In this document: positions 4,530 through 26,919 of the stretch, piece by piece
Layout: the number at the start of each line of letters is the position of its first letter
How positions within the stretch are numbered: the stretch's first letter is position 1
Source of the DNA: a virus
Reading direction: 5' to 3' (one strand)
Length of the DNA stretch: 26,919 nt
IMG/VR virus record: IMGVR_UViG_3300041955_001919
Span: 1 to 26,919 of that record
Notes under the pieces: model-generated
What the model saw: only the letters and a program-made list of their open reading frames with translations
What the model was told of the DNA's origin: nothing
Database searches by the model: none
Position numbers and translations under genes: made by a program

Positions 4530-4565
4530 AGCGCCGCGCCACGACAAACAACGGAGCACGCAACC

Positions 4566-5390
4566 ATGACCACCGGCGATCTCGTTGCGCTTGGCGCGGT
4601 GAAGAACTGGCTTGGCGTCGTGACAAACGACGACGACGCGCTGCTCGGCGCGCTGATTACCCAGATCAGCCGGGGCATATACAACTACATCAACCGCTCT
4701 TTCGTGCTGCCGACCAACGTAACCGAGGCCTACGACGGAACCGGGCGCGATCAGCTGTTGCTGCGCAACTGGCCGGTCGGCGCGATCTCTTCCCTAGTCG
4801 TCGACGGCAAGGCGATTCCGCCGGCGCCTTTGATGGTCGCGGGCGTCTATCCAACGCCGGGCTATGTGCTGGAGCAAAGCGACGACGCGCCCCCCGGCGC
4901 GATGCAGCAGCTGTTTTTGCGCGGGCCGCATGTCTTCCGCAAGGGCCGGCAGAATGTCGTCGTCTCCTATCGCGCCGGCTACGAGATCGTCGGCGAGGCG
5001 TGGACGGTTCCGACGACGCCGTTTGAGGTTGCGGCGCTCGGGCCTTACGGCAATTGGGCGGTCGACACCTGCGTAGCTTATGCGAGCGGCGCGGCGATGA
5101 CGCCCGTTTCGGGGACGCCCTCGCTGGGCCAATATTCGGCGAGCGCCGGCGTTTACACATTCGCAGCCGCGGACGCGGGCGCCTCCGTGCTGATTTCCTA
5201 TGGCTACATCCCGGCCGATTTGGAGCAATGCGCGCTCGAATGGGTCGCCGACCGTTACAAATACAAGGACCGCATCGGCATGACGAGCAAGAGTCTCGGC
5301 GGCCAGGAGACGACGGCCTATCAGAACAAGGCGACGCCGGATTTCGTCGCGCAGTCGCTGATCAATTTCCGCAGGATCATCGCGAATTAA
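4566..5390 (+). CDS. Head-tail connector (gp6-like) with an extra beta domain
   Basis: This 274-residue protein starts MTTGDLVALGAVKNWLG, with GGAG 9 bp upstream. The N-terminal part (LGVVTNDDDALLGALITQIS) is typical of the gp6/YqbG-like connectors that form a ring below the portal. The C-terminal part (DLEQCALEWVADRYKYKDRIGM) also fits that family. Between them, residues ~166-214 carry an insert (VAYASG...GQYSASAGVYTFAAADAG) closely resembling a segment of the major tail protein at 6762-6905. Family members are commonly about 100-200 residues, so the length is explained by this insert. It is followed after 9 bp by the gp10-like gene, consistent with one transcript. Confidence 0.75.
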   Translation: MTTGDLVALGAVKNWLGVVTNDDDALLGALITQISRGIYNYINRSFVLPTNVTEAYDGTGRDQLLLRNWPVGAISSLVVDGKAIPPAPLMVAGVYPTPGYVLEQSDDAPPGAMQQLFLRGPHVFRKGRQNVVVSYRAGYEIVGEAWTVPTTPFEVAALGPYGNWAVDTCVAYASGAAMTPVSGTPSLGQYSASAGVYTFAAADAGASVLISYGYIPADLEQCALEWVADRYKYKDRIGMTSKSLGGQETTAYQNKATPDFVAQSLINFRRIIAN

Positions 5391-6413: not shown

Positions 6414-7157
6414 ATGTCCAACAACACTTCGCTCGCTTTCGGCTCTGGCGTCTTGATCGGCACGACCGCCGCCGGACCCTTGCAATTTGGAACCTTGCAG
6501 GATGTGTCGGTCGATTTTTCCTTTTCGATGAAGTCGCTGATGGGGCAATATCAGTTTCCTGTCGCGGTGGCGCGCGGCGCCGGCAAAGCCTCGGGCAAAG
6601 CGAAATTCGCCAATATCGACGGTCCCGTGCTCAACCAGATTTTCTTTGGAAATACGCCGGCGACCGGCCAGACGCTCTGGTCTTATAACGAAGGCGTCAC
6701 CGTCGGCGCCGCCTCGCCCTACACCGCGACGGTGGCCAACGCCGCAAATTTCGACGAGAACCTCGGCGTCGCCTATGCGTCGAGCGGACTGCAGTTGACG
6801 CCCGTCGCCAGCAGCCCGGCGGCCGGGCAATATAGCGTCGCCAGCGGCGTCTACACGTTCAGCTCGGCCGACGCCGGCAAGGCCGTGCTGATCACATACA
6901 GCTATACGCAATCCGTCGCAGGCTCGAAGGCGGTGATCTCCAACAAGCTGATGGGCGTGGCGCCGACCTTTCAGATCGACTTTTATCAAACCAACCCCAA
7001 TGTCGCCGGCGCACAATGGTCGCTGCGGCTTTTCAGCTGCATCTCGTCGAAGCTTTCGCTGGCCAGCAAGCTCGAAGACTTCACGATACCCGAAATGGAT
7101 TTCGAAGCCTTCGGCAATGCGTCAAACAACATCGCCCAATTTAACACCGCAATTTAA
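6414..7157 (+). CDS. Major tail (tube) protein with beta-domain insertion
   Basis: This 247-residue protein starts MSNNTSLAFGSGVLIGTTAA, preceded by AAGGA about 10 bp upstream. It has the strand-rich composition of siphophage tail tube proteins and sits directly before the tail chaperone gene. Residues ~116-164 (LGVAYASSGLQLTPVASSPA then GVYTFSSADAGKAVLITYSY) form a domain also present in the connector at 5061-5207. The N-terminal core (DVSVDFSFSMKSLMGQYQFP) and C-terminal core (KLEDFTIPEMDFEAFGNAS) flank it, so the shared domain appears inserted into the tube fold. It would project from the tail surface. Confidence 0.75.
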   Translation: MSNNTSLAFGSGVLIGTTAAGPLQFGTLQDVSVDFSFSMKSLMGQYQFPVAVARGAGKASGKAKFANIDGPVLNQIFFGNTPATGQTLWSYNEGVTVGAASPYTATVANAANFDENLGVAYASSGLQLTPVASSPAAGQYSVASGVYTFSSADAGKAVLITYSYTQSVAGSKAVISNKLMGVAPTFQIDFYQTNPNVAGAQWSLRLFSCISSKLSLASKLEDFTIPEMDFEAFGNASNNIAQFNTAI

Positions 7158-7166
7158 GGCGCTCCC

Positions 7167-7595
7167 ATGAATCCCGATCCCAAAATCGATTGCGCCGGCG
7201 CGCTGGTTGTGACGCTTGCCGGGCGCGAATGGTTCGTGCCCGTGCTGGCCATGCGCCAGGCGCGCGTCGTGGTGCCGGCGTTGATGCGCCTCATGCCAGT
7301 GTTGCAGGAGATGCAGAGCGGCCAGCCTTCGGCGATGGCGCGGCTCTCGGAGGAAAATTACGACGCGATCATCGCCGTCGTCCACGCCGCGCTGACGCGC
7401 GCCTATCCCGAGCTGTCGCGCGAGAGTTTCTTGGACCTGCCGGCCTCGACGCCGGAGCTCGTCGCGGCGCTCGGCGTCGTCACGCGCCAGACGGGCTTCT
7501 TCAAACCGGCCGAAGACGCGGGACAAGTTTTGGGGGAAACATTGGGGGAGACGGCGAAACCTGCGACGGCTCCCCAGAATTCTTCGACCGGCTGA
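7167..7595 (+). CDS. Tail assembly chaperone, short form (lambda gpG-like)
   Basis: This 142-residue protein starts MNPDPKIDCAGALVVTLAGR, 9 bp after the major tail stop. By position (between tail tube and tape measure) and helical composition it is the tail assembly chaperone, which binds the tape measure while the tube polymerises. I see no specific motif beyond this. A slippery heptamer at 7529-7535 followed by a stem lets ribosomes move to the -1 frame, giving a predicted 217-residue long form, as lambda does with gpG/gpGT. GTA gp10/gp10.1-type proteins occupy the same place. Confidence 0.75.
   Translation: MNPDPKIDCAGALVVTLAGREWFVPVLAMRQARVVVPALMRLMPVLQEMQSGQPSAMARLSEENYDAIIAVVHAALTRAYPELSRESFLDLPASTPELVAALGVVTRQTGFFKPAEDAGQVLGETLGETAKPATAPQNSSTG
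7529..7575 (+). promoter_or_regulatory. Programmed -1 ribosomal frameshift site
   Basis: The heptamer TTTGGGG at 7529-7535 is read in the zero frame as T TTG GGG. It satisfies X XXY YYZ exactly and allows both tRNAs to re-pair as TTT GGG. Nine bases later, GGGGAG (7545-7550) can pair with CTCCCC (7570-7575) around a 19-nt loop. The -1 frame then stays open to 7819 and has no ATG, GTG or TTG for well over 100 bases after this point. Confidence 0.75.
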
Positions 7596-7819
7596 TCGCC
7601 CATTACTGCCAATGTTCCGGCGAGCGATGGGACGACGCGCTGGAGGCGAACCTCACCTTCCCACGCCTCTTCGCGCGCCAGACCTATTGGCGTGAGTTTC
7701 CGCCGACGCATGTGCTGGTGCGGGCGATCGCTGTGGGGCTCGGCGTGTTCAAACCGACCGCGCCGCCGCGGGATGCGATGGCGAGCTTAAAGGCGATGTT
7801 TCCGGAGGGGAAGATTTAG
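7532..7819 (+). CDS. Tail assembly chaperone, -1 frame extension (gpT-like)
   Basis: This segment is in the -1 frame relative to 7167-7595 and encodes GNIGGDGE, then PEFFDRLIAHYCQCSGERWD and FARQTYWREFPPTHVLVRAI, a well-formed protein sequence. The upstream part of the same frame (7190-7531) is an Arg/Ala-rich shadow and has no plausible independent start near the real sequence. I therefore read it as translated only by frameshifting, giving a 123 + 94 residue product. It corresponds to the T part of lambda gpGT, which recruits tail tube subunits. An alternative is start by an unusual codon, or decay of a once separate gene. Confidence 0.7.
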   Translation, partial: GGNIGGDGETCDGSPEFFDRLIAHYCQCSGERWDDALEANLTFPRLFARQTYWREFPPTHVLVRAIAVGLGVFKPTAPPRDAMASLKAMFPEGKI

Positions 7820-7851: not shown

Positions 7852-8403
7852 TCAACCCGCGTGCTTCTTCACCCAGGCGACATACCGGTCCACCCAAGCC
7901 TGCAAAAACTGCCGGCTGGCGGGGCCGATCTCGCCGTCTGCGTCGAACAGGCCCTCCTTCGCCTGAATAAACGCCTCGGGCTGACCGAGCGTCGGGGCGT
8001 CGAGATAGGCGAGAATGTTGCGCAAATGCTGCTGCGCCAAGGCCGTGCCGATGGCGCCGACCGAGACGCCGATGACGCCGGCGGGCTTGCCGGCGAAGGC
8101 GTTGTCGCCATAAGGGCGCGACGCATGATCTATGGCGTTCTTGAGCACGCCGGGAACCGAACGATTATATTCGGGCGTCACGAACAAAACGCCCCTGGCG
8201 GCGCGAATCTCGCCTTTCAGCCGCTTTACGGACGCAGCTTGCGTTGCGTCGTCGTCCTGATTGTAGAGCGGCAGATCGCCGATTTGCGCCTGCCGGAAGG
8301 AAAACTCTGCGGGCGCCAGTTTCACGAGCGCGTCCGCCAGCTTGCGGTTGTAAGAGTCGCGGCGAAGACTGCCGACCAGGACAAGGATTGGATAGGGGCT
8401 CAT
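7852..8403 (-). CDS. NADPH-dependent FMN reductase (ChrR/azoreductase-like)
   Basis: This 183-residue protein starts MSPYPILVLVGSLRRDSYNR. The motif GSLRRDSYNRKL near the N-terminus is the flavodoxin-like FMN phosphate-binding loop. VTPEYNRSVPGVLKNAIDH in the middle is the second signature of the family, followed by the G-rich AGKPAGVIGVSVGAIGT. Such cytosolic enzymes reduce FMN, quinones, chromate or azo compounds using NAD(P)H; the substrate cannot be deduced. The start at 8403 is supported by GGAG 8 bp upstream on the minus strand. It is convergent with the tail chaperone, lies between chaperone and tape measure genes, and has no known virion role, so it is cargo or a host insertion. Confidence 0.88.
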   Translation of the reverse strand: MSPYPILVLVGSLRRDSYNRKLADALVKLAPAEFSFRQAQIGDLPLYNQDDDATQAASVKRLKGEIRAARGVLFVTPEYNRSVPGVLKNAIDHASRPYGDNAFAGKPAGVIGVSVGAIGTALAQQHLRNILAYLDAPTLGQPEAFIQAKEGLFDADGEIGPASRQFLQAWVDRYVAWVKKHAG

Positions 8404-8494
8404 ATCGATGATCTCCAAAAGCCGAGGATAAGCTGAGGCGTCAAAGGGTAAATATTGTTTGGCCTCTGCGAAAGACCAGCCATGGCTTTGCGCG

Positions 8495-8959
8495 TCAGTC
8501 GCACTCAGCGCCGACATTGCGCCAGTCGCTCCAGATGCGCCGCCGCGCCTCGTCCAGCGCGAGTTGTCCGGCGCACAGCGCGCGGGCGAGACAGGCTTCC
8601 TTGCGGTCCTTTTCATGGGCCTCGTCCCACGGCTGCAGCTCGAGATTGCTCGGCTCGTAGGGCGCTCCGCCGAGGCTGAGCGGAATGCGGTGGTCGAGTT
8701 CGAAGTCGCCGAGCATTTCTTGGGGAATCGCCAATTCGCGGGTCAGCGCGATTTTTACGCGCCGCGTATAGGACGAGGAGGGCCGCGCCCCCCTCGTCCA
8801 GCCGGGAACGCAAATCGTCGTTTCGACGGTCTCTTGCGTCACGGCGGGATTATACAAGATGTCTGCACGAACAGGTTGTGCATGCAGCGGGCTGACGATG
8901 AGGGCAAGAAGCAGCAATAATAGTGGCATGCATGCATTTCTCGCGGTTTGGCGAATCAT
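8495..8959 (-). CDS. Exported HNH-nuclease-like protein
   Basis: This 154-residue protein begins with a signal peptide (MPLLLLLLALIVSPLHAQP at residues 11-29). The mature part has SSSYTRRVKIALTRE and then DFELDHRIPLSLGGAPYEPS followed by NLELQPW. The DHRIPL...GG...NL pattern is that of HNH-type endonuclease domains, although the final histidine of classical HNH is not obvious (AHEKD may supply it). Two cysteines (ACLARALC) may form a disulfide, consistent with a periplasmic location. An alternative start at 8929 would still leave the signal peptide and would give a more usual leader length from the predicted promoter. It precedes the FMN reductase by 91 bp on the same strand. Confidence 0.65.
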   Translation of the reverse strand: MIRQTARNACMPLLLLLLALIVSPLHAQPVRADILYNPAVTQETVETTICVPGWTRGARPSSSYTRRVKIALTRELAIPQEMLGDFELDHRIPLSLGGAPYEPSNLELQPWDEAHEKDRKEACLARALCAGQLALDEARRRIWSDWRNVGAECD

Positions 8960-11001: not shown

Positions 11002-13557
11002 TTGATTGCGTCCGCATGCGCGTCCTCTGCTTCCATTGCCCTCGCGTCGCTGACGACCAATCGAGGCCCGCATGACCTCCCCTATCTCTCCGCGATAAAC
11101 CTCATTCCGGCGTCGGGCGAGTTCGTATACGACACGATGGCGTACAGCGGAATGCAGCCGGGGTCCTCGACCTTTGTGCCGATCAACACCTATCACGCGC
11201 CGGGCGGCACGCGCACCGATGTGATGTATGCGCTCGATCAGCTGCAGGCGACGCTGCCCAATTGCAATAGCGTCGCGCTGGTCGTGCAATGGCTGGGGAA
11301 CTCGCTCGACGCCTCAGCTTGCCAGGTCTATCCGGCTACGACCTATTTCTTTGACGGCGAGGTCGGCGCCTTCGAGCCGACCGCTGGCGGAACCGATTCC
11401 TGGCGCGTCTCCGATGTGACGCTCGCCACGTCAGGCCTCATTCCGATCAGTCGGCCCGACGGCGTTCACGCCGCCTATGGCGGCACGCCGTCCGATCAAT
11501 CGGTCGTGCGCTGCATCGCGGAGCTAAAGAATCGCGGCTTCAAGGTCGCGCTTTATCTGATGATGAATATGGACGTGACCGGCAAGCCCTGGCGCGGCCT
11601 CGTCACCTATTCGCCAGACGTCTCCAGCGCGGCGACGACAGTGGTGAATAGTTTTCTGGGGACCGCCGCGACCTCGCAGTTTACGCGCGACGCGACCAAT
11701 CTCACCGTGCATTACTCCGGCAATGTGCTCGACTTCACCTACCGCCGCTTCGTGCTGCATTACGCCAATCTCGCGGCGCTCGCCGGCGGCGTCAATCTCT
11801 TCGCCTTCGGTTCGGAGCTGCGCGGGCTGGAGGCGATACGCGGCCCCGCTTGGACGCCCGCAGGAACGACGGATGGAAGCGGCAATGCGGTGTGGGATTA
11901 TCCCTTCGTCGCCGGGCTCGTCACGCTCGCCAATGACTGCCGCTCGGTGTTCGACGCGGCGGGCTTTACGAAGAATCTCGCGGCGCGCGAAAACCTCATC
12001 ACCTATTCCGCCGATTGGTCGCAATGGATGGGCGCGCAGCATTCGGGCGTCACGGGAATCTTCCCGCATCTCGACACGCTATATGCGTCATCCAACATCG
12101 ATTTCGTGTCGATCGACAGTTACATGCCGCTGTCGGATTGGACCACCGGCGAGGGCGGTCTCGACGCGCAAAACTGGCGCTTGCCGCCGCCGACCTCCTG
12201 GCCGCTCGCCAGCCCGACGACGCTTGGCTTCGGCCTCACCGGCGCGCCCGATGTTCACCGGGTCGATTATCTGAAGGCCAATATCGAGGGCGGAGAGAAA
12301 TATCACTACTGGTACGGCGACTACACATCCTCGGTGACGCTCGATCCCAATGGCACGCTGCAATATGTGACCGCGCCGCAGGGCGATCGGCTGGCGCAGG
12401 CGCGCAATCCTTATTACGCGGGTCAAGAACTGTTCGCCTTCAAGATGCTGCGTTGGTGGTGGCTCAACACGCATCAAGCCGTCTACGACGCCGGCGACGG
12501 CGCGGGGACCATTCCACGCGGGCCGCAGACGCAATGGGTTCCGCAGTCGAAAAGCATAGGCTTTCTCGGATATGGCTTTCCGACCTCGGATCGATGCAGC
12601 AATGAAGAAAACGTGTTTTACGATCCGCAGTCGGTCTCCGGCGGCGCGCCGTTCTGGTCGATCTGGAACGCCGCCAAATCCGCGCCGTTGATCGACGCGA
12701 CGCTGGCGCTGACCGCGCTGCAGGCCTTCTGGCAATATTGGACGACGGACGGCAATAACCAAACGTCAAGCGCCGGCCTGCCGATGATCGCCGACGATCT
12801 GATGTTCGCCTGGTGCTGGGATGCGCGCCCGCTGCCGGAATTTCCGCTGCGCACCGACATTTGGTCGGACGGCGCGGATTGGCAGAACGGACATTGGCTC
12901 AACGGCAAAGTGCCGTCCTTGCCGCCGCAGACGCCCGCAAGCGCGCCGAGCTTCGGCCCGTTTCCGAGCTTTCCGACGTTGATCGGGCAGGGCTGGTCGA
13001 GCAAGGTTACGCCGAAATTTTCCACGCTCGCGCATGAGCGCGCGTCAGGCAAGTCGTCGCGCCGCATGAAGATGCGCTGGCCGCTGTACGAGATCGAACT
13101 GACCTATGATTTTTTGCGCGCCGACGCGGGAACCCAGGAGTTACAAAACATCCTCGGCTTCTTCGAGAGCGTGCAAGGCCAGGCGCAACCGTTCTGGCTC
13201 GCGCCGCCGGGGCTTTCCGCGCTGACGAACCAGCCGGTGGGAACCGGCGACGGCGCAACGACCGCATTTGCGATGGTTCGCACGACCGGGGCTTTTACGG
13301 AACCGCTCGCCGGCGTGTCGAGCCTGACGGCTGTGCGCGTGAACGGCGCGGGGCTGGCCTCTGGCGCGTGGAGCTTGTCGCCTGGCTACGAGCCCGTCCT
13401 GACGCTCGCGAGCGCGCCCGCATTGGGCGCTGGCGTCAACGTGGACGGCGCGGCGTTGTGGCTGTGCCGATTTGCCGACGACGCGCTGGACTTCGAGCAA
13501 TTCGCTTACAATCTGTTTAGGTTGAAGAGCGTGAAGCTGGTGACGGTGAAACTGTGA
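11002..13557 (+). CDS. GTA TIM-barrel-like protein fused to a DUF2460 domain
   Basis: Up to 851 residues. From INLIPASGEFVYDT (about residue 32) the sequence follows the GTA TIM-barrel-like (glycoside-hydrolase-type) domain: CNSVALVVQWLGNSLDASAC, YGGTPSDQSVVRCIAELKNR, YRRFVLHYANLAALAGGVNL, FAFGSELRGLEAI (conserved Glu), ENLITYSADWSQWMG, VDFVSIDSYMPLSDW-like and AWCWDARPLPEFPLRTDIW. The C-terminal ~190 residues (FSTLAHERASGKSSRRMKMR to the end) form a DUF2460 (GTA gp12-like distal tail) domain. In the Rhodobacter GTA the TIM barrel sits within the large hub protein gp15; here it is on its own gene with gp12-like sequence attached. No in-frame ATG precedes the conserved start: TTG 11002 is possible, while ATG 11072 is out of frame and soon stops. 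The N-terminus is therefore uncertain. Confidence 0.8.
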   Translation: MIASACASSASIALASLTTNRGPHDLPYLSAINLIPASGEFVYDTMAYSGMQPGSSTFVPINTYHAPGGTRTDVMYALDQLQATLPNCNSVALVVQWLGNSLDASACQVYPATTYFFDGEVGAFEPTAGGTDSWRVSDVTLATSGLIPISRPDGVHAAYGGTPSDQSVVRCIAELKNRGFKVALYLMMNMDVTGKPWRGLVTYSPDVSSAATTVVNSFLGTAATSQFTRDATNLTVHYSGNVLDFTYRRFVLHYANLAALAGGVNLFAFGSELRGLEAIRGPAWTPAGTTDGSGNAVWDYPFVAGLVTLANDCRSVFDAAGFTKNLAARENLITYSADWSQWMGAQHSGVTGIFPHLDTLYASSNIDFVSIDSYMPLSDWTTGEGGLDAQNWRLPPPTSWPLASPTTLGFGLTGAPDVHRVDYLKANIEGGEKYHYWYGDYTSSVTLDPNGTLQYVTAPQGDRLAQARNPYYAGQELFAFKMLRWWWLNTHQAVYDAGDGAGTIPRGPQTQWVPQSKSIGFLGYGFPTSDRCSNEENVFYDPQSVSGGAPFWSIWNAAKSAPLIDATLALTALQAFWQYWTTDGNNQTSSAGLPMIADDLMFAWCWDARPLPEFPLRTDIWSDGADWQNGHWLNGKVPSLPPQTPASAPSFGPFPSFPTLIGQGWSSKVTPKFSTLAHERASGKSSRRMKMRWPLYEIELTYDFLRADAGTQELQNILGFFESVQGQAQPFWLAPPGLSALTNQPVGTGDGATTAFAMVRTTGAFTEPLAGVSSLTAVRVNGAGLASGAWSLSPGYEPVLTLASAPALGAGVNVDGAALWLCRFADDALDFEQFAYNLFRLKSVKLVTVKL

Positions 13558-13617: not shown

Positions 13618-14220
13618 ATGACTCTTCCCTTTTTCCCGACGCTCGCAGGCCAGACCTTCGCGACCAAGAGCCCGATCACCGCGAGCATCGTCGCCGAGCA
13701 TGACTCCGGGCGCACGGTGCGCACCGCGCTGTATCAAGGGCTTTACGAATTCGAGGTCGGCTTCGACGCGCTCGCCTCGGACGCCTCGAGCAACCCCGGG
13801 CTCGGCGCGCAATCGCTGCAGGCGGTGATGGGGCTTTATCTGCAATGCGGCGGGTCTTACGGCGCGTTTCTTTACGTCGACCCAAACGACAACGCCGCGA
13901 CCAACCAGACGATAGCGACGGGCGACGGCGCGACGACGCAATTTACATTGCAGCGTTCGATTGGCGCTGGGCAAGATTCGGATTTTTACGTCACCGGCGT
14001 GACGAGCGTGACCGTCAACGGCGCCGCTGTTTCGAACTGGTCGCTCATTGCCCCGAATCTGCTCGCTTTCGCCAGTCCTCCCGCCAGCGGCGCGGTGACT
14101 GCCGCGTCCTTCACTTACGCCTTCGTCTGCCGCTTTCTTCAAGACAGCCAGGACTTCGAAAACTTCATGCAAAATCTGTGGGCGTCGAAGACGATCAAAT
14201 TTCGGAGCGTGCGGCAATGA
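13618..14220 (+). CDS. DUF2460 distal tail protein (GTA gp12-like)
   Basis: This 200-residue protein starts MTLPFFPTLAGQTFATKSPI. It has the DUF2460 layout: an N-terminal strand set (FATKSPITASIVAEHDSGRT), then GLYEFEVGFDALASD, ALQ-type helix (LQAVMGLYLQCGGSYGAFLY), a mid-protein TGDGATTQFTLQRS segment and the end RFLQDSQDFENFMQNLW. Family members form the distal tail ring that links tube and hub. It resembles the C-terminal part of 11002-13557 in order of motifs (both have TGDGATT and a DFE.F..NL. ending), so the two arose by duplication. Its stop overlaps the start of the DUF2163 gene (ATGA). Confidence 0.85.
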   Translation: MTLPFFPTLAGQTFATKSPITASIVAEHDSGRTVRTALYQGLYEFEVGFDALASDASSNPGLGAQSLQAVMGLYLQCGGSYGAFLYVDPNDNAATNQTIATGDGATTQFTLQRSIGAGQDSDFYVTGVTSVTVNGAAVSNWSLIAPNLLAFASPPASGAVTAASFTYAFVCRFLQDSQDFENFMQNLWASKTIKFRSVRQ

Positions 14221-18055: not shown

Positions 18056-18652
18056 ATGAACGACTCCGCCCCGACGCGCGCCGATTTCGCGGTTATCGAG
18101 CGCTCGGACGCGCGTTGGGCGCGGCTGCGCGAGTTGATCGAACAGCACTCGCTGAAGAGAGGCGATTTCACGCTCTCGTCCGGCGGCAAGAGCACATATT
18201 TGTTCCAGCTGCGGCAGACGACGATGCTTCCCGAGGGCGCGAAAATTCTCGGCGATATCGTCGTCGATTTCATGAAGCGTCACGATCTGCGCTGCGTCGG
18301 CGGTCTTGCGGTCGGCGCGGTGCCGATGGTGTCCGCCGTTTCCGTGATGAGCTTCATCAAGGCGTTTCCGATCGACGCCTTTTTCGTGCGCAAGGAAGCC
18401 AAGGCGCATGGCGCGCTGGAGCGCATCGACGGCTTTGTGTCTAGCGGCGAGGAAGCGCTGCTGATCGACGATGTGGCGACCTCGGGAAATTCGATCATCA
18501 AGGCGATGGAAGGGATGCGCATGGAGCATCCGACCAGCTTCGCGCGCAAGGCGCTCGTGGTGATCGATCGCGAAGAAGGCGCGCGGGAGAATCTCGCAGG
18601 CCGCGGGATCGAGCTGTTTTCGATTTTTACGCGATGCGATTTTAACATCTGA
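18056..18652 (+). CDS. pyrE: Orotate phosphoribosyltransferase
   Basis: This 198-residue enzyme is complete and starts MNDSAPTRADFAVIERSDAR. The OPRT signatures are all present: RGDFTLSSGGKSTYLF (about residues 35-50), FVRKEAKAHG (about 110-119, lysine-bearing loop) and the PRPP-binding motif EALLIDDVATSGNSI (about 133-147). It makes orotidine 5'-phosphate from orotate and PRPP in cytosolic pyrimidine synthesis. GAGGT precedes the ATG. A rho-independent terminator follows at 18685, so it is a self-contained unit between the hub and fibre genes. Whether it is the host's only pyrE or an extra copy cannot be told from this window. Confidence 0.93.
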   Translation: MNDSAPTRADFAVIERSDARWARLRELIEQHSLKRGDFTLSSGGKSTYLFQLRQTTMLPEGAKILGDIVVDFMKRHDLRCVGGLAVGAVPMVSAVSVMSFIKAFPIDAFFVRKEAKAHGALERIDGFVSSGEEALLIDDVATSGNSIIKAMEGMRMEHPTSFARKALVVIDREEGARENLAGRGIELFSIFTRCDFNI

Positions 18653-19580: not shown

Positions 19581-20669
19581 ATGCAATGGAAGAACCCGGA
19601 CGGGTCAATTACCGAGGGCGTCGTCATCGAGGATGGCGACGGCAATAAAATTACATCCTTTTCGGGCGGCGGCTCCGGCGGAACCGTGACGCAGGGCCCG
19701 GCGGGTTCGGCCAGCGCGCCCTGGTATGTCGCGCCGGGAACAGGCGTTACGTGGACGCTCGGCGGCGCGCTGCCGGCCTTCGCGGCGACGCCGACTTTCA
19801 ACATCGGCACGGCGCCGACCCTGGCCGTGAGCTGGTCCGGGCAGAGCGTCGCCGCGACGCAAAGCGGGACTTGGAACATCGGCAGCATCGCGAGTCTTCC
19901 GGCGCTCGCGAGCGGCTCGAACACCATCGGCGCGGTGACGCAGGCGAGCGGCCCGTGGACGGTGTCCTGGACCGGACAGAGCGTCGCCGCGACGCAAAGC
20001 GGGACTTGGAACATCGGCAGCATTGCGAGTCTTCCGGCGCTCGCGAGCGGCTCGAACACCATCGGCGCGGTGACGCAGGCGAGCGGCCCCTGGACGGTGT
20101 CCTGGACCGGACAGAGCGTCGCCGCGACGCAAAGCGGGACTTGGAACATCGGCAGCATCGCGAGCCTACCCGCGCTCGCCGCGGGGTCGAACACCATCGG
20201 CGCGGTGACGCAGGCGGGCGGTCCCTGGACAATAAATTACACGCAAATCGCCGGCGCCTCGCTTGGAGCGCCGACCGCATGGGGCGCAGCCCCGAGCGGC
20301 AATGTGCAGGGCGTCAACGCCAATGTGCTCGCGCTGCCGGCGCTCCCCTCTGGATCGAACACGGTCGGCAATGTCGGCGTCAACAACAATGCGGTCGGCT
20401 CGGGGTCGCTCGCCACTTCGCAGGCGTCGATCGGAACCACGGCCGGCGAGATCGCGGCGGCGCGCACTGGCGCGGCCGGGACCGGCCGCATCGCTGTGAC
20501 GCTCGTAAACTTCGGCTCGGCGACGGTCTTTTTCGGCAATTCCGGCGTGACGACGGCGACGGGCATGCCTCTCCCCGCCGGGGCGGCGGCGACACTCAAC
20601 ACGACGGCGGCGATCTACGGGATCGCCGCCAGCGGAACTCAAACCATCGGCATCACGGAGACCTTCTAA
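19581..20669 (+). CDS. Repeat-containing tail fibre-like protein
   Basis: This 362-residue protein starts MQWKNPDGSITEGVVIEDGD, with AGGAG 8 bp upstream. Residues ~84-218 are three tandem 45-residue repeats (each with SVAATQSGTWNIGSIASLPA and SGSNTIGAVTQ). A weaker related segment precedes them. The C-terminal 120 residues (GTAGEIAAARTGAAGTGRIA to GTQTIGITETF) look like a beta domain of a structural protein. The repeats predict an extended shaft. The gene ends at TAATG, overlapping the next start by one base, so the two proteins are translationally coupled and probably partner each other. Confidence 0.65.
   Translation: MQWKNPDGSITEGVVIEDGDGNKITSFSGGGSGGTVTQGPAGSASAPWYVAPGTGVTWTLGGALPAFAATPTFNIGTAPTLAVSWSGQSVAATQSGTWNIGSIASLPALASGSNTIGAVTQASGPWTVSWTGQSVAATQSGTWNIGSIASLPALASGSNTIGAVTQASGPWTVSWTGQSVAATQSGTWNIGSIASLPALAAGSNTIGAVTQAGGPWTINYTQIAGASLGAPTAWGAAPSGNVQGVNANVLALPALPSGSNTVGNVGVNNNAVGSGSLATSQASIGTTAGEIAAARTGAAGTGRIAVTLVNFGSATVFFGNSGVTTATGMPLPAGAAATLNTTAAIYGIAASGTQTIGITETF
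19832..20236 (+). repeat. Three tandem 135-bp coding repeats
   Basis: The word CAGAGCGTCGCCGCGACGC recurs at 19842, 19977 and 20112, exactly 135 bp apart. Copies are nearly identical at the DNA level, including silent positions, with slight changes in the third copy. The period is 45 codons, so repeat gain or loss keeps the frame. Confidence 0.9.
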
Positions 20670-25926: not shown

Positions 25927-26919
25927 ATGCGAAACTTCTTCTTTTTTCTCGCGGGGCTCGTCCTCGCCATCGTCAATCCGGCCTTCGCCGCCGATTTGCC
26001 TTCGGCTAAAACCGCGCCGCCGCCGCCGTTGGTTCCGGCGACGTCATGGACCGGGCTGTATTTCGGCGCCTCCGGCGGTTACGCCTTCGACAGTTCGCCG
26101 AACATGAATCTGGAGGCGTACAACAGCGGAGTTGGAACTTCGTTTCAGCCTTACGCCTATGCGTCCGGCGCGACCGCCGCTCTCAACAATCGCGCCTTTA
26201 TCGTCAGCCCCAATATCGGCGCCAATTATCAGGCGGGTAACTGGGTGCTCGGCGTTGAAGCTTCCGCCGATCTGCCGGTGGGCGGCAATACGCAGACCGT
26301 GACTTTCGCAACGCCGGGGCTTGGGCTCGTTCCGTCCGTCGCGCAGATCGGCGCGGGCTGGACGTTCCGTCTCGACGGGACCACCAAGATCGGCTGGTTG
26401 CTCAATCCGGCGTTGCAGATCTACGTCGGCGGCGGCCCGTCGATGCTGAAGACCGACTCTTCGGTTTATGCGGGCAGCCCCTATAACGTGGCCAGCGGCT
26501 ATGGGACGCAGGGCCCGAGCTTCCCCGGCTGGCACGCCAAGGCCGGCGTCGAATGGATGGCGATTCCCGGATGGTCGGTGAAGCTTGAATATGACCACGC
26601 CGACTGGGGCTCGCACACTGTCGCTGGGTCCGGCTTGCTCTATGGCGCGGCCTTTCCCGCCATCGCAGCGCAGCAGGCGCAGTATCTCGGAACCAAGCGC
26701 TTCACCGAGGAAAGCGTGCGGCTGGGTCTCGCCTATCACACCAATTTCCTTGGCGGCGCCAACGGCCTGTTCTTCCTACCCACCGGCAATGTCGGCGTCG
26801 ATGTTTCGACCTTCAACTCCAATGTGACGAACGGCGTCGGCAACGTCAACGGAGCGATTCAAAACGCGTTGCCGCAGTCCGGCGCGCTTAGCGCAGCCGC
26901 CGCCAAGGCGGGGCTCTAA
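25927..26919 (+). CDS. Omp25-like outer-membrane beta-barrel protein
   Basis: This 330-residue protein starts MRNFFFFLAGLVLAIVNPAF and has a signal peptide cleaved at AFA-ADL. The mature start (a Pro-rich linker, then SWTGLYFGASGGYAFDSS) is typical of Rhizobiales Omp25/Omp31-like barrels; GANYQAGNWVLGVEASADL, WHAKAGVEWMAIPGWSVKLE and RLGLAYHTNF are barrel strands. Family proteins usually end on that last strand; here ~60 residues follow (LPTGNVGVDVSTFNSNVTNG ... AAAKAGL). GAGGTGA lies just upstream of the ATG. It could be a host gene bordering the element or a phage-carried surface protein. The gene ends exactly at the window edge. Confidence 0.85.
   Translation: MRNFFFFLAGLVLAIVNPAFAADLPSAKTAPPPPLVPATSWTGLYFGASGGYAFDSSPNMNLEAYNSGVGTSFQPYAYASGATAALNNRAFIVSPNIGANYQAGNWVLGVEASADLPVGGNTQTVTFATPGLGLVPSVAQIGAGWTFRLDGTTKIGWLLNPALQIYVGGGPSMLKTDSSVYAGSPYNVASGYGTQGPSFPGWHAKAGVEWMAIPGWSVKLEYDHADWGSHTVAGSGLLYGAAFPAIAAQQAQYLGTKRFTEESVRLGLAYHTNFLGGANGLFFLPTGNVGVDVSTFNSNVTNGVGNVNGAIQNALPQSGALSAAAAKAGL

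Follow-up and report, generated by a model that had tools for sequence, protein, structure and literature searches.

A probable programmed -1 frameshift at G GGG GAA, with a downstream hairpin, in a putative phage tail assembly chaperone gene

The window analyzed here (the whole 26,919-nucleotide stretch of IMG/VR record IMGVR_UViG_3300041955_001919) probably contains a tail assembly chaperone gene in which ribosomes make a programmed -1 frameshift, slipping at G GGG GAA with stimulation by a hairpin, a reading to which we give a probability of roughly 85%. Judged by comparison with related loci, the signal from the -1 reading frame, and from the retention of G GGG GAA with a hairpin at +7 in the relatives, is far stronger than chance would give, and the most likely slip site is GGGGGAA, three bases further downstream than the TTTGGGG that a sequence-only reading had named. 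As far as can be told from sequence, this signal for programmed frameshifting is conserved and belongs to a well-known kind.

Gene cluster and comparative set

By its gene content, the window is a tail-gene cluster from a phage, a prophage, or a phage-derived element. Genes for connector, neck, and terminator proteins lead to a phrog_8234 tail protein gene with a probable tail tube role, which lies upstream of the ORF1/ORF2 cassette (Table 1). Two minus-strand genes (7852-8959) separate the cassette from the phrog_2854 tape measure gene downstream, and beyond it are genes for GTA_TIM, DUF2460, baseplate-hub, and Rcc01698-like proteins.

Table 1. Features of the cassette and its flanking tail genes, in window coordinates
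Feature	Position	Strand	Remarks
Major tail (tube) protein candidate, 247 aa	6414..7157	+	phrog_8234, 1.7e-59, a family without assigned function; role from position
ORF1, putative gpG-like tail assembly chaperone, zero frame, 142 aa	7167..7595	+	ATG 7167, TGA 7593-7595
T TTG GGG, earlier-named heptamer	7529..7535	+	in register; absent from 64/69 deduplicated loci
G GGG GAA, most likely slip site	7532..7538	+	in-register conservation; overlaps TTTGGGG
ORF2, putative gpT-like extension, -1 frame	7532..7819	+	stop 7817-7819; predicted fusion 217 aa
Second in-register G GGG GAG	7544..7550	+	made by hairpin 5' arm; part of close clade only
Proposed stimulatory hairpin	7545..7575	+	GGGGAG/CTCCCC; inner pairs 7552-7553/7567-7568, 7555-7556/7564-7565
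Tape measure protein, 430 aa	9061..10353	+	phrog_2854 tail length tape measure protein, 5.3e-13

Related loci were collected with the tail protein as query, which fetched 14 genomic and 80 viral-contig loci. An ORF2 query gave seven more (most on contigs already in the set), and five phage records were added. Of these loci, iterated HMMs recognized ORF1 in 103 and ORF2 in 97; motif counts were made over 69 deduplicated loci, and 68 loci were placed on a tree. The hosts of these relatives are Pseudomonadota (Methylocystaceae, Rhodoblastus, Methylocapsa, Brevundimonas, Acinetobacter, and Pseudomonas). Among named assemblies, a Methylocystaceae MAG (L001) comes closest to the window, with 94% identity in the tail protein; Rhodoblastus genomes come next.

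Two reading frames and their proteins

The two-frame arrangement is well established from the comparison of loci, based on the -1 relation, purifying selection, and the lack of a conserved ORF2 start. In all 97 loci where both halves could be identified, ORF2 lies at -1 relative to ORF1; none of the 97 has a +1 or zero-frame relation, and none has the two halves fused in one ORF. Within the close clade the ORF2 frame has a median dN/dS of 0.12 (range 0.04-0.22), versus 2.3 and 2.0 in the other two frames. By these sequence measures, the ORF2 frame encodes a real conserved protein under purifying selection, which bears out the initial view that the -1 frame, open to 7819, has a protein-like sequence.

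That view also held that ORF2 has no start nearby, and this is the case: between 7158 and 7658 the only -1-frame candidates are TTG 7190 and ATG 7229, which lie within ORF1 and a long way ahead of the site. We scanned the relatives from 45 nt upstream of the site, or from the opening of the frame, to the conserved domain of ORF2, and in 57 of 67 loci there is no ATG, GTG, or TTG in the ORF2 frame over that interval. The remaining loci share no conserved start codon, and no AGGA/GGAG/GAGG-type Shine-Dalgarno 4-mer precedes any of theirs.

ORF1 appears to resemble predicted phage tail assembly chaperones, judging from its structural model (a beta-hairpin followed by helices; AlphaFold, pLDDT 81.5). 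Its nearest viral models (Foldseek against BFVD) include many tail assembly chaperones and the GT protein of phage N15, with high probability and E-values of 1e-3 to 1e-1; PDB searches with the same model gave no clear fold match. Weak family matches were seen to phrog_183 “tail chaperone” (1 of 44 sequences, 6.4e-4) and to Pfam Phage_TAC_12 (3 of 44, best 1.4e-3). The ORF2 model is a small helical domain for which the viral-structure search returned no match, and neither protein matched the lambda families of Pfam by sequence. Two other profile matches were set aside as products of chance or composition: ORF1 to Pfam TetR_C_30, which was below the family cut-off, and ORF2 to the TAL effector repeats of Pfam.

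In L023/L097 (the same contig), an insertion of ~1.4 kb breaks ORF1 after ~65 codons, relative to L015. In L069, whose site is G GGA AAA, an otherwise conserved stretch of ORF2 has a TAG nonsense codon at an offset of ~400 after the tail gene, which probably reflects decay of this copy or an error in sequencing.

Conservation of G GGG GAR

An in-register G GGG GAR is present in 58 of the 69 deduplicated loci, against a mean of 4.1 and a maximum of 12 in codon shuffles. The same motif is found 0 and 0 times in the other two registers and once in ORF1 bodies. Ten loci have the lambda-type G GGA AAR instead (shuffle mean 0.6), and the one remaining locus, L054, has G GGG GCA. On the tree of 68 loci, the heptamer is GGGGGAA in 42 and GGGGGAG in 16. 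GGG is a minority glycine codon in these loci (40/362), and the plus strand of the window has only two GGGGGAR motifs, both inside the element.

In many loci the motif directly precedes the ORF1 stop, as in Rhodoblastus (CCG GGG GAG TAG), and Acinetobacter phages keep GGGGGAA, with ORF1 ending in TCG GGG GAA TAG/TAA. In L020 an ORF1-frame TGA comes just after GTG GGG GAG GCG, so the slip there would be limited to the site or to a point upstream of it. It should be noted that GGGGGAA is a non-canonical heptamer (it does not have the form XXXYYYZ), and that coding needs in the two frames (Gly-Glu and Gly-Gly) account for part of the conservation of GGG GAR.

The downstream hairpin

The arms GGGGAG (7545-7550) and CTCCCC (7570-7575), described earlier as following TTTGGGG after a 9-nt spacer, are both present. 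Counted from the end of GGGGGAA, the hairpin starts at 7 nt (a 6-nt spacer). Its stability in the window alone was rejected as evidence, because it does not differ significantly from shuffled sequence (z of -0.02 for 101 nt and -0.43 for 65 nt).

The case for the hairpin comes from the relatives. Averaged over the 58 GGGGGAR loci, the probability that a base is the 5' member of a pair is 0.59 six bases past the heptamer (+6) and climbs to 0.81-0.90 over positions +7 to +11. A scan with forced pairing at different offsets leaves the first base effectively unconstrained below offset 7, so that only its fall-off beyond +7 counts as agreeing with this profile. The folding z at the site averages -1.63, compared with -0.59 in control stretches 70 and 140 nt downstream (p = 1e-6, for loci that are not independent). 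Hairpin stems are found at the same offset with unrelated sequences in four clades: GGGGAG/CTCCCC in the clade of the window, a stem around CCGG in Rhodoblastus, GCCCCCGGG/CCCGGGGGC in soil contigs, and GCGGGC or GCGGAC with their complements in a Methylocapsa-like clade. Two-sided compensatory changes are few (1 to 3 pairs per clade) and lie outside the window's clade. Within that clade the stem is invariant, including in 11 close relatives, and it thus provides no covariation evidence. Where heptamer and stem had been expected to be conserved together, it is the stem that close relatives retain and TTTGGGG that several of them lack.

The G GGA AAR loci comprise a nine-member clade nested among the G GGG GAR loci (L051, L056, L057, L069, L071, L074-L076, and L085) plus L014. 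They have homologous genes in the same -1 relation, but differ in having a canonical, lambda-type site and in showing no pairing peak at +7. Their best hairpins at +6 to +8 have a median of -11.9 kcal/mol, versus -17.4 kcal/mol for GGGGGAR loci. Because these loci amount to about one clade of nine plus L014, the difference is close to a single evolutionary event. Folding found no strong hairpin in the Acinetobacter loci.

Alternative readings

The sequence-only reading described a lambda-like -1 cassette producing 142- and 217-residue chaperones. Its arrangement, its hairpin, and its startless ORF2 are upheld by the analysis; its choice of slip site, with tandem slippage of tRNA-Leu and tRNA-Gly on T TTG GGG 9 nt ahead of the hairpin, now appears quite improbable. 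T TTG GGG does lie in the ORF1 register at 7529-7535, as claimed, with the canonical form and a spacing in the usual range; the A-site Gly tRNA would re-pair perfectly after slipping there, and TTTGGGGGAA recurs independently in L067. However, TTTGGGG is in register in only 5 of the 69 deduplicated loci and is missing from relatives that have >90% identity in the tail protein and retain both frames. Homologues that keep both frames and the hairpin without it are L017 (ACT CTG GGG GAA), L019 (AAT CTG GGG GAA), L020 (GTG GGG GAG), L021 (GCG GGG GAA), L024 (GAG GGG GAA), and L101, and in L022 TTTGGGG overlaps a hairpin arm. Further, any in-register XXXYYYZ in the ORF1 tail is found in 24 of 69 loci, where codon shuffles give a mean of 16.5 and a maximum of 27 (12 and 11 loci in the other registers), so by sequence count the canonical motif occurs at chance level. 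Shuffling the last 50 ORF1 codons of the window produces an in-register XXXYYYZ 32% of the time, and TTTGGGG is as frequent in the window as in shuffled sequence. Given these rates, and a fold that is not extra stable, the heptamer and hairpin taken alone say little. In the window, four bases belong to both TTTGGGG and GGGGGAA, and the former may contribute to slippage there.

Two other readings leave out an active frameshift. ORF2 could be an independent gene that has a start codon of its own and is translated after ORF1 by coupling or reinitiation, as might be suggested by the ATGA overlap just after GGGGG in four Rhodoblastus-type loci and by public records that annotate ORF2 as stand-alone in Brevundimonas and Acinetobacter phages. 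Yet in Acinetobacter 5W the start given in the annotation (offset 347) falls inside the conserved domain, which begins at offset 314, and a separate start was rejected on the results of the scan above; this reading is already largely refuted, and we regard it as barely credible. The other is that the cluster is decayed or domesticated (possibly GTA-like) and that the element is inherited and no longer used. Neither a terminase nor a portal was recognized among the window proteins scanned, the minus-strand FMN reductase/HNH cassette stands ahead of the tape measure gene, and among the phage genes is one for a phosphoribosyltransferase-like protein. Against disuse, ORF1, ORF2, and the tape measure gene are all open, and purifying selection on ORF2 is strong among close relatives, although some of these may be active phages. 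On balance, we think disuse unlikely, if less so than a slip at TTTGGGG.

Proposed mechanism and products

For a programmed frameshift at GGGGGAA, we infer slippage and its efficiency along the following lines. On most ribosomes translation would run to the ORF1 stop, yielding the 142-aa gpG-like protein. A smaller share would be held up by the hairpin (7545-7575) while the Gly codon GGG (7533-7535) occupies the P site, shift one base back on the G run of G GGG GAA (7532-7538), and read the -1 frame to 7819, giving the 217-aa gpGT-like protein. The Gly tRNA would move from GGG to GGG with its pairing fully kept, and either the A-site Glu tRNA would pair anew with GGA, with a G:U in the middle, or the P-site tRNA alone would slip before accommodation of the Glu tRNA. 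By analogy with lambda (PMC5009743), contact with the tape measure protein would be made through the part shared by the two products, and the extension would bring in the tail tube protein.

The predicted product has 217 residues whichever candidate site slips, and the products of tandem slippage at GGGGGAA and of slippage at TTTGGGG would differ by one residue (QVLGENIGG and QVLGGNIGG, respectively). The fusion peptide predicted at the outset, QVLGGNIGG, is therefore right for a slip at TTTGGGG and also for a P-site-only slip at GGGGGAA, but not for a tandem slip at GGGGGAA.

Comparison with known frameshift systems

In lambda, genes G and T overlap in two frames between the tail tube and tape measure genes, a -1 shift occurs near the end of the first frame, and the second frame is without a start, so that a short and a long product are made (PMC5009743). 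The window has the same gene position, -1 shift, startless second frame, and pair of products (the shift and the products being predicted here). The sites differ: lambda has G GGA AAG, and the window has G GGG GAA plus a hairpin.

GGGGGAA is not new as a proposed site. In the PRFect study it is the sole “fivetwo” motif among about a thousand frameshift motifs of the SEA-PHAGES set, and is explained by G:U re-pairing (PMC10885494). In corynephage phi16, GGGGGAA with a pseudoknot was proposed in the tail genes (PMC5506516). We found no experimental slippage test of GGGGGAA in either report (PMC10885494, PMC5506516). These actinobacteriophages share with the window the heptamer and the kind of gene, and a downstream structure was proposed in phi16 as well. 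Their hosts are Actinomycetota, whereas those of the loci analyzed here are Pseudomonadota, and the likeness is one of heptamer and gene kind. Given the earlier proposals in actinobacteriophages, what is new is the instance in Pseudomonadota phages and the corrected slip site.

Tentatively, and at somewhat less than even odds, we suggest that phages and prophages of Pseudomonadota broadly use a tail chaperone frameshift on the weak G GGG GAR (where only the P-site tRNA re-pairs perfectly), usually with a hairpin fixed at +7, that the hairpin was dropped after a switch to G GGA AAR, and that site and hairpin strengths can be exchanged in evolution. The XXXYYYZ rule, which is usual in searches for tail chaperone frameshifts, leads here to a chance-level site that is three bases off. 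A search for G GGG GAR plus a hairpin would give the correct annotation in many Pseudomonadota phages, in which ORF2 is now missed or falsely started. The locus set also provides natural variants that bear on how far -1 slippage needs A-site re-pairing and on how a hairpin compensates.

Other features of the cluster

The minus-strand genes at 7852-8959, between the chaperone and tape measure genes, encode an NADPH-dependent FMN reductase and an overlapping HNH-like protein. Both genes are present in the close relatives L018 and L019; the reductase was seen in L001 and L015, the HNH-like gene alone in L020 and L024, and the Rhodoblastus loci have neither.

In the head-tail connector protein (4563-5390), C-terminal residues 156-215 match phrog_8234, the tail protein family of 6414-7157 (1.8e-9), as though a copy of one domain had passed between the connector and tail protein genes. 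DUF2460 occurs twice in succession, fused behind a GTA_TIM domain (11002-13557) and alone (13618-14220). Cellular-type genes flank or interrupt the phage genes (DUF3280, phosphoribosyltransferase-like, and outer-membrane beta-barrel, at 1-585, 18056-18652, and 25927-26919, respectively). Finally, a probable tail-fiber or appendage gene contains internal protein repeats (WTGQSVAATQSGTWNIGSIASLPALASGSNTIGAVTQASGPW) at 19751-20280.
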